A stretch of DNA of 64,000 bases from Halorubrum sp. CBA1229 (GTDB lineage Archaea > Halobacteriota > Halobacteria > Halobacteriales > Haloferacaceae): assembly GCF_003721435.2 (NCBI RefSeq), contig NZ_CP054585.1, forward strand, positions 2,852,001 to 2,916,000, in the 5' to 3' direction. The position numbers and the translations under genes were made by a program. Positions 47,693 to 50,715 of the stretch are shown here, piece by piece (the stretch's first letter is position 1; every line of letters begins with the position of its first letter). The notes beneath the pieces are model-generated. The model was not told the DNA's origin. It worked only from the letters and a program-made list of their open reading frames with translations, and made no database searches.

Positions 47693-47785
47693 CGGCGACG
47701 CGGGCGGGCGGCGGTCGCGGGACCGCCTCCTCGTCGGTGCGCCGACGTGACAAGAACTAACTCCCGGCGGCGCCCCCGAACGGGT

Positions 47786-48907
47786 ATGCCGAACTTCTCC
47801 GACAGGGTCGAGCGGATCTCCATCAGCGGGATCCGCGAGGTGTTCGAGGCGGCCGGCGACGACGCGATCAACCTCGGGCTCGGGCAGCCCGACTTCCCCA
47901 CGCCAGCGCACGCGAGGCAGGCCGCCGTCGACGCGATCGAGGACGGGAAGGCGGACGCCTACACCGAGAACAAGGGGACCCGGTCGCTGCGGGAGGCGAT
48001 CGCGGAGAAACACCGGGCGGACCAGGGGATCGACCTCGATCCCGGGAACGTGATCGCCACTGCGGGGGGGAGCGAGGCGCTCCACGTCGCGATGGAGGCG
48101 CACGTGAGCGAGGGCGACGAGGTCGTGATCCCGGATCCGGGATTCGTCTCGTACGACGCGCTCACGAAACTCGCGGGCGGCGAGCCCGTCCCCGCCCCGC
48201 TGCGCGACGACCTCACGATCGACCCGGCCGCGATCGAGGACGCGATCACCGACGACACCGCGGCGTTCGTGGTGAACTCGCCCGGCAACCCCACCGGGGC
48301 GGTCTCCTCCGAGGAAGACGTGCGGGAGTTCGCGCGGATCGCGGACGAACACGACGTGCTCTGTATCTCCGACGAGGTGTACGAGTACACCGTCTTCGAC
48401 GGCGAGCACTACTCGCCGATGGAGTTCGCGGAGACGGACAGCGTCGTCGTCGTCAACTCCGCCTCGAAGCTGTTCTCGATGACGGGCTGGCGGCTCGGCT
48501 GGGTGTACGGCTCCGACGAGCGCGTCGAGCGCATGCTGCGCGTCCACCAGTACGCGCAGGCCTGCGCGTCGGCCCCGGCGCAGTACGCGGCCGAGGGCGC
48601 GCTGCGCGGCGACCGCGGGATCGTCGACGAGATGACCGCCTCCTTCGAGCGCCGCCGCGACCTCCTGTTGGAGGGGTTCGATGATATTGGCCTCGACTGT
48701 CCCACCCCGCAGGGCGCCTTCTACGCGATGCCGCGGGTGCCCGAGGGGTTCGTCGACGAGTGCCTCGACCGCGGGGTGATCGTCGTCCCCGGCGAGGCGT
48801 TCGGCGAGCACGGCCGCGGCCACGCGCGCATCTCGTACGCGACCGACGAGAGCGAGCTCCGGGAGGCGCTCGACGTGATGGCGGAGGCCTACGAGGCGGC
48901 GAAGTAG
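47786..48907 (+). CDS. Class I/II PLP aminotransferase
   Basis: 373 residues from MPNFSDRVERISISGIREVF. Fold type I motifs: NLGLGQPDFPTPAHAR, YTENKGTRSLREAIAEKHR, ATAGGSEALHVAM, VNSPGNPTGAVSS, CISDEVYEYTVFDG and the PLP-lysine in NSASKLFSMTGWRLGW, then the substrate Arg in HARISYATDESEL. It is likely an aspartate/aromatic-type or related aminotransferase; substrate not determined. The 438-bp inverted-repeat element lies 32 bp after its stop. Confidence 0.9.
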   Translation: MPNFSDRVERISISGIREVFEAAGDDAINLGLGQPDFPTPAHARQAAVDAIEDGKADAYTENKGTRSLREAIAEKHRADQGIDLDPGNVIATAGGSEALHVAMEAHVSEGDEVVIPDPGFVSYDALTKLAGGEPVPAPLRDDLTIDPAAIEDAITDDTAAFVVNSPGNPTGAVSSEEDVREFARIADEHDVLCISDEVYEYTVFDGEHYSPMEFAETDSVVVVNSASKLFSMTGWRLGWVYGSDERVERMLRVHQYAQACASAPAQYAAEGALRGDRGIVDEMTASFERRRDLLLEGFDDIGLDCPTPQGAFYAMPRVPEGFVDECLDRGVIVVPGEAFGEHGRGHARISYATDESELREALDVMAEAYEAAK

Positions 48908-48939
48908 GTGACGAGGCACGAGGCGAGGTAGGGACGAGG

Positions 48940-49377
48940 GAGTCTGTTGAACTCCAATTTTTCAGAAACATTCTCGACTGAAACAGCCGGTCGGTGAAGC
49001 GTGCGTATCAATCGTTATTAGAACGAGTACAGTTCTATCCGCACCTGAGAACACACCGAATTAGTTTTCGGGAGAGGCAACTGTACCTTCGACAAGTATG
49101 CCCTCCGAGAAGACGTGTCCCGATTGCGAGGAACCACTGGAACGGATGGAACTACAAGGAACCGACGCCGTTGGCGAACTATCTATCGTCTCACCATCGA
49201 CGGACGACGGATTTCTTAGTAGTATCCGAGCGGATGAGATTCTGACGCCAGTTCCATACGTTTGCCCCGAGTGCCGACGAACCCTCCTGTATGCCGAAAA
49301 GTAGCCGATACGTTAGTCACCTGTATTGACCACAACCGGATCAAAATAGATCACCTGTTACGGATTTCAACAGAGCC
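48940..49377. mobile_element. 438-bp inverted-repeat element (MITE-like) with 8-bp target duplication
   Basis: Left end GAGTCTGTTGAACTCC (48940-48955) and right end, on the minus strand, GGCTCTGTTGAAATCC (49362-49377) match at 13 of 16 positions. Both are directly flanked by GGACGAGG (48932-48939 and 49378-49385). The inside is AT-rich compared with neighbours. The ends resemble IS6-family termini, which also make 8-bp duplications, but no transposase is present. The only open frame that looks real is a zinc-ribbon gene. Host DNA just left is rich in GACGAGG-like words, which slightly weakens the duplication call. Confidence 0.8.
49098..49304 (+). CDS. Small zinc-ribbon protein carried inside the inverted-repeat element
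   Basis: 68 residues, MPSEKTCPDCEEPLERMELQ to VPYVCPECRRTLLYAEK, with CPDC and CPEC pairs framing an acidic strand region. No further domain. It lies wholly between the two terminal repeats. Codon use is more AT-rich than neighbours. The two Cys pairs make it a convincing gene, and an untranslated 140-bp leader separates it from the left end. Function is unknown; DNA- or protein-binding is plausible. Confidence 0.75.
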   Translation: MPSEKTCPDCEEPLERMELQGTDAVGELSIVSPSTDDGFLSSIRADEILTPVPYVCPECRRTLLYAEK

Positions 49378-49512
49378 GGACGAGGTAGGGAGACAGAATG
49401 CAAAGCGGCTGCAGGATACTGGCAACACCTGCCAAACGATAACTAAAGAGCATTACCCGGGCGCGGGAGGTTTCCGCAAGTTATACTGCGACCGACGGAG
49501 TACCGAGAGGTA

Positions 49513-50715
49513 ATGGACCGGAACATTCAGGTCAGCCGTCTCGACCGGCGGGCCGTCGAGGACCAAGAGGTCGAGATCGTCGAGCGGAAGGGTATCGGAC
49601 ACCCTGACTCGATCTGTGACGGAATCGCGGAGTCGGTGTCGCGGGCGCTCTCGCAGCTCTACTTGGACCGCGTCGGAAAGGTGCTTCACTACAACACGGA
49701 CGAGACCCAGCTCGTCGCCGGGCGCGCCGCGCCCGCCTACGGCGGCGGCGAGGTCGTCGAGCCGATCTACGTGCTCATCGTCGGGCGCGCCACGAAGGAG
49801 TACGACGGCCAGCAGCTCCCGGTCGACTCGACCGCGCTGGCGGCCGCCCGCGACTACCTCGCGGAGGCGATCCCGGAGCTGGAGTACGGCACCGACGTCG
49901 TCGTCGACGCCAAGCTCGGCGAGGGCTCCGGCGACCTCCAGGACGTCTTCGGCGAGGAGACCCAGCAGGTCCCGATGGCGAACGACACCTCCTTCGGCGT
50001 CGGCCACGCCCCCCTCACCGAGACCGAGACGATCGTTCACGAGGCCGAGCGCGCGCTCAACGGACGCTACCACGACGAGCACCCCGAGCTCGGCCCCGAC
50101 GTGAAGATCATGGGCAAACGCGAGGGCGACCGGATCGACATCACGGTCGCGGCCGCGATGGTCGACCGCTACGTCGACGGGCTCGACGAGTACGACGACG
50201 CGGTCGACGATGTGCGCGAGTTCGTCACCGGGCTCGCCGAGGACCACACCGACCGCGAGGTCCACGTCGACGTCAACACCGCCGACGACTACGACGAGGG
50301 GTCGGTGTACCTCACCGTCACCGGCACCTCCGCGGAGCAGGGGGACGACGGCTCGGTCGGGCGCGGCAACCGCGCGAACGGCCTCATCACCCCGAACCGA
50401 CCGATGTCGATGGAGGCGACCTCCGGGAAGAACCCCGTCAACCACATCGGGAAGATCTACAACCTGCTTTCGACCCGGATCGCCGAGTCGGTCACCGACG
50501 AGGTCGACGGGATCCGCGACCTGCAGGTCCGCCTGCTCTCGCAGATCGGCCGGCCGATCGACGAGCCCCACGTCGCCGACGCGCAGCTCGTCACCGAGGA
50601 GGGGGTCGCGATCGGCGACATCGAGCCGGAGGTCCTCGAGATCGTCGACCGCGAGCTGAACGACGTCACCGACGTGACCCGCAGCGTCATCGACGGCGAC
50701 GTCTCGACGTTCTGA
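49513..50715 (+). CDS. mat: Archaeal S-adenosylmethionine synthetase
   Basis: 400 residues. The archaeal type is plain from [55 protein letters not shown] (split over about residues 58-94), [25 protein letters not shown] and [25 protein letters not shown]. It makes SAM from methionine and ATP. Length is normal. The start follows a purine-rich ACCGAGAGGTA at 49501-49511, a possible SD. Confidence 0.96.

Follow-up and report, generated by a model that had tools for sequence, protein, structure and literature searches.

A probable transposase-less cassette with IS5-family ends carries a zinc-ribbon gene in Halorubrum and has relatives across sampled Halobacteria

A 438-bp unit lying between an aminotransferase gene and a methionine adenosyltransferase (MAT) gene of Halorubrum sp. 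CBA1229, within the 64,000-nucleotide stretch of contig NZ_CP054585.1 analysed here (the window), is very probably a mobile insertion cassette (MIC), that is, a transposase-deleted derivative of a transporter IS (tIS) with IS5-family ends. The unit has the structure of an insertion, its termini are absent in relatives, and its ends are shared with other elements; the same cargo is found elsewhere together with a transposase, and the cargo gene is under purifying selection.

The unit (element e0, 48940-49377) is bounded by 16-bp inverted termini, GAGTCTGTTGAACTCC and GGCTCTGTTGAAATCC, which match at 13 of 16 positions, and an exact 8-bp direct repeat, GGACGAGG, flanks it on both sides. These repeats and their coordinates had been given in a preliminary description of the sequence, and direct reading confirms them. 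As that description also held, the interior encodes a complete CxxC...CxxC protein, the ORF being intact, and has no match to a transposase; the unit presents IS-type inverted repeats and a target-site duplication without the enzyme. The features of the region, with the flanking genes taken from ORF reading and used as conserved neighbours in the empty-site comparison, are as follows.

47747-48907, plus strand: aminotransferase gene, flanking
48932-48939, no strand: target-site duplication GGACGAGG, left copy, 8 bp, identical to 49378-49385
48940-48955, plus strand: left 16-bp terminal repeat GAGTCTGTTGAACTCC, with 3 mismatches to the family consensus GGCTCTGTTGAAATCC
48940-49010, plus strand: left-end (LE) block common to family members, with 87% identity to L002 over element positions 4-71
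49057-49072, plus strand: putative promoter of the zinc-ribbon gene, an A/C-rich run followed by TTTT, proposed from alignment and kept in copies without termini
49098-49304, plus strand: passenger gene for a 68-aa CPDC...CPEC zinc-ribbon protein, stop codon included
49321-49377, minus strand: right-end (RE) block, with 75% identity to that of a 644-bp element in L077
49362-49377, minus strand: right 16-bp terminal repeat, perfect consensus GGCTCTGTTGAAATCC
49378-49385, no strand: target-site duplication GGACGAGG, right copy, 8 bp, identical to the left copy
49513-50715, plus strand: archaeal MAT gene, flanking

A second frame of 83 aa (48994-49245), which overlaps this ORF and whose composition is basic and non-haloarchaeal, was treated as spurious. 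A short CGAGGTAGGGA repeat at 48924-48934 and 49381-49391 contains the target site; it overlaps the right 8-bp duplication and partly extends the flanking similarity.

The interval between the aminotransferase and MAT genes is without the termini in all 28 scorable congeners. It measures 605 bp in the window, 89-205 bp in 20 of the 28 congeners, and about 1.2 kb, made up of unrelated sequence, in the other eight (L059, L065-L070, and L075); this position may serve as an insertion site more generally. Of 52 genomes of the genus, 10 contain the zinc-ribbon gene, and the window's own copy is the sole one at this position; a zinc-ribbon gene at the same spot without the termini, which the preliminary description had named as evidence against mobility, is not found in congeners. 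Because both the termini and the gene are missing from the spot in congeners, the 438-bp unit is an insertion, one that, as far as the compared sequences go, is present in the window's species and absent from the sampled congeners.

The ends of the unit, about 70 bp on the left and about 57 bp on the right, recur elsewhere in this genome as well as on plasmids of haloarchaea, and LE positions 1-66 are largely invariant among 58 oriented elements. A 273-aa transposase is encoded by elements in which the 16-bp ends are identical and the duplication is likewise 8 bp long; it scores 218 bits against the NCBIfam IS5 model NF033579 (cut-off 140) and matches DDE_Tnp_1 (PF01609) with E=1.7e-16. The same ends surround an IS5-type DDE transposase in L013, in L250, and in nine further elements, and the duplications of the autonomous elements are likewise 8 bp (AGGCAAGC in L013, ACTGATAC in L250). 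Since the intact transposases found between these ends are IS5-type, the cognate family is IS5; among the transposases found there, no match to an IS6 DDE domain was obtained. Duplications of 8 bp speak for a DDE mechanism. A search of viral contigs for the exact left-end pattern and of phage records for the transposase gave no hits, and thus no viral vehicle was found.

The zinc-ribbon gene is itself found with such ends outside the window. L250, in a genome of another family, is a 1263-bp element with both termini and a perfect duplication, in which a zinc-ribbon gene (84% amino acid identity) adjoins the LE and an intact, convergent transposase gene adjoins the RE. In L077 and L081, both from the window's genus, the gene is preceded by a decayed left end, the spacing being close to that in the window, so that the termini are not, as the preliminary description had considered, lacking in all other copies. 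Most other copies are without ends and look native. Homology between L250 and two of these end-less copies, L261 and L262, begins at element position 66, which is the LE boundary, and stops 0-8 bp past the zinc-ribbon stop codon; the captured segment therefore comprises the gene together with about 88 bp of the DNA that originally preceded it. In the window, the sequence runs from just past the gene straight into the RE, and this junction, which is blurred by divergence from L250 and not placeable to the base, is consistent with loss of a transposase segment. A tree of this 68-aa gene fits one capture as well as several. L077 was considered as a second intact zinc-ribbon cassette and rejected, as its 644-bp element (1853-2496) is a different family member, GC-rich and apparently non-coding, inserted in the decayed zinc-ribbon left end, from which its duplication AATTTCAT derives; e37 (L156 6370-6951) is a GC-rich relative of it.

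Members of the zinc-ribbon family were detected in 47 of 391 genomes (E<=1e-8). Comparison of the window gene with that of L077, its nearest relative, reveals 8 synonymous changes and 1 non-synonymous change (96% identity, dN/dS 0.037), and the adjoining upstream non-coding DNA is about 81% identical; against other copies, dN/dS lies between 0.05 and 0.16. Judged from these substitutions, the gene is maintained as protein-coding, the older pairs mixing selection before and after mobilisation. End-less copies on two plasmids adjoin a thioredoxin gene, and one of them also adjoins TusA and DsrE-like genes. These neighbours hint at a function of the protein in thiol or sulfur metabolism.

The zinc-ribbon gene is one of dozens of cargos. 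Ends of this family were detected in 293 of 391 sampled Halobacteria genomes and in 74 of 86 genera, using a single query and scoring no more than two candidates in each genome; copy numbers are thus lower bounds. The 238 loci taken into a census were picked by good left-end matches and are therefore not an unbiased sample; they include 207 left/right pairs, 74 of which have a duplication matching at 7 or more of 8 positions (60 distinct elements), compared with 0 of 1035 shifted controls. Among the 60 duplication-verified elements, 10 encode an intact transposase, three contain fragments, and 47 have no match; in seven of the 10, another ORF (59-157 aa) lies next to the transposase. Cargo with Pfam support includes RidA, Hypoth_Ymh/DUF2321, an HVO_A0114 HTH protein, DUF5518, HalOD1 (twice), UDG, Trypsin_2, an SBF transporter, PAS, a Rce1-like protease, and RDD; the other cargos are lipoproteins and small membrane proteins that belong to no family. 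In roughly a dozen of the shortest elements, no gene is convincing. Related genes are carried at different sites, flanked by different duplications (e22/e39/e47 and e6/e17), and e47 joins the cargo of the e22/e39 group to a broken transposase. Both outcomes that the preliminary description had envisaged for other haloarchaea are thus seen, with the zinc ribbon travelling (L250) and the cargo also varying; its idea of terminal repeats as a gene-spreading device holds more broadly than proposed. In L089 (6088-6491) and L217 (2064-2501), the sole gene encodes a HalOD1 domain standing by itself (about 70-75 aa), which Pfam annotates as a halobacterial output domain.

The genome of the window contains several other family members. 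These include a 567-bp RidA cassette (L002, duplication GGAAAATT), a 2448-bp unit with a 363-aa Tat-type secreted ORF (L309 101-2548, G000:C1:802670-805117, duplication ACATGTTC), a 1319-bp unit with a 362-aa membrane ORF (L312 101-1419, 7/8 duplication), and weaker members. L309, L312, and L310 (101-2749, with a 667-aa pentapeptide-repeat-like ORF) have the same 16-bp tips and a different subterminal sequence (TTAAGAACTGATAG...), so that more than one end subfamily exists; going by these subterminal differences, the three are a second subfamily with bigger cargo. A cognate transposase (at least 50% identity) was not found in the own-genome sequence searched, where the best match is 46% identical. 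The present mobility of the window copy is therefore doubtful, and it may be stranded.

The course of events that we favour would begin with a transporter IS laid out, as in L250, in the order LE, cargo gene, convergent transposase, and RE. The resulting cassette would consist of the LE and RE enclosing the zinc-ribbon gene with its own promoter, the window copy having lost, probably by deletion, a transposase segment of about 0.8 kb between the cargo stop codon and the RE. Insertion between the aminotransferase and MAT genes would have been catalysed by a transposase acting in trans, giving rise to the 8-bp duplication, and the cargo may benefit the host. The 3 mismatches in the left terminal repeat, the missing cognate transposase in the own-genome sequence searched, and the blurred junction count against this reading.

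Other explanations differ in how much of this evidence they can accommodate. That the repeats surround a native gene by chance has a practically negligible probability. The window has one exact 8-bp repeat enclosing 16-bp inverted ends that match at 13 or more positions, the sole such structure within it, and 20 block-shuffled windows have 4, or about 0.2 each, so that the repeat structure alone is not beyond chance in GC-rich DNA; the element is judged real because its ends, homologous to those of other mobile elements over 57-70 bp, recur elsewhere, and because termini and gene are both missing at this spot in relatives. An IS6-family MITE, or a derivative of one, that happens to hold an ORF is highly improbable. 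IS6 elements also make 8-bp duplications. The tips of the element (GG, CTGTT, GAAA) resemble IS6 ends, which have GG, cTGTt, and caaa motifs (PMC7986276), and this accounts for the IS6-like ends of the preliminary description; that assignment does not stand, as every intact transposase between these ends, in 10 duplication-flanked elements, is of the IS5-type DDE_Tnp_1 class.

Two further possibilities accept the IS5-family ends. The cassette may never have had a transposase, two family ends having captured a host gene directly by one-ended or two-element transposition or by recombination between ends. The 47 verified elements without any transposase match would fit such an origin, as would the cargo homology, which starts cleanly at the LE boundary and ends shortly beyond the gene; nevertheless, we consider it unlikely, given that in L250 the zinc-ribbon gene and a transposase occur in the same arrangement, and that e25 (L112 5862-7108), e47 (L202 1661-2501), and e46 (L200 574-2501), whose cargos are UDG, a small membrane protein, and a lipoprotein, respectively, combine cargo with broken transposase fragments and are apparent intermediates between autonomous and transposase-less forms. 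Somewhat less probable still is a neutral hitchhiker, in which selfish ends carry a gene without benefit. Family members without a convincing ORF (e8, e14, e24, e35, and e37, for example) indicate that cargo is not required for movement, but purifying selection is seen after separation at different sites both for the zinc ribbon and for three other cargo pairs (dN/dS 0.29, 0.24, and 0.26), even if former native sites may contribute to these values.

The preferred reading, a MIC derived from a tIS, places the element in a kind that is already known in bacteria. Its nearest worked example is MIC231, one of the IS231 cassettes of Bacillus cereus, which, as cited in PMC3913671, are moved in trans by the transposase of the parent IS. 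Both have a target duplication and IS ends that bracket a non-transposase gene, with no transposase inside; movement in trans was shown for MIC231 and would apply here as well. Unlike MIC231, the window family has IS5-family ends, an 8-bp duplication, an archaeal host, and a far larger variety of cargo within one end family. Like tIS (PMC3129680, PMC7986276), the autonomous elements L250 and e58 carry a transposase and an unrelated passenger gene, but most autonomous copies here have an extra ORF, and the cargo bay lies, where orientation is clear, between the LE and the transposase 3' end. The MITEs of Haloquadratum, including an ORF-bearing ISH2-type one, are likewise transposase-less, with transposon-related inverted ends and a target duplication; four of their five families are non-coding and one described MITE has an ORF (PMC3119063), whereas dozens of different genes are found here under one set of ends. 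The MITE proposed in the preliminary description stands as a transposase-less mobile carrier of a small host-type gene and fails as a strict MITE, since the ORF is intact and selected. PATEs are also transposase-free mobile repeats of haloarchaea, but they have near-terminal palindromes and neither terminal inverted repeats nor a target duplication (PMC3119063), both of which the window element has. In outcome, the family resembles integron gene cassettes, in that numerous small genes, most of them uncharacterised, are dispersed one per unit; unlike those cassettes, which rely on attC/IntI site-specific recombination and form arrays, it uses DDE transposase ends and no array.

According to a study from 2019 on integrated mobile elements in archaea, DNA transposons with diverse passenger genes had gone undetected there (PMC6563490), and passenger cassettes go unmentioned in a 2024 review of the MITEs of prokaryotes (PMC10969869). 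The open-licence literature searched contained no class-wide, hyperdiverse archaeal version; an earlier description outside it is possible. We tentatively propose, with slightly less than even confidence, that Haloarchaea have a class-wide, transposon-based cassette system, in which IS5 ends and a fixed cargo bay, located between the LE of about 66 bp and either the transposase 3' end or the RE, capture single accessory genes with their own promoters, shed the transposase, and spread these genes under selection. Halobacteria are known as a class in which gene exchange is rampant, and some of their members, such as Haloferax, are genetically tractable. If the proposal is correct, the system does in archaea what integron cassettes and MICs do in bacteria. 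With one end family in about three-quarters of the sampled Halobacteria genomes, and with dozens of unrelated, often selected genes that include regulators, transporters, and proteases, it would then be a major route by which Halobacteria acquire genes, one that annotation has so far missed.
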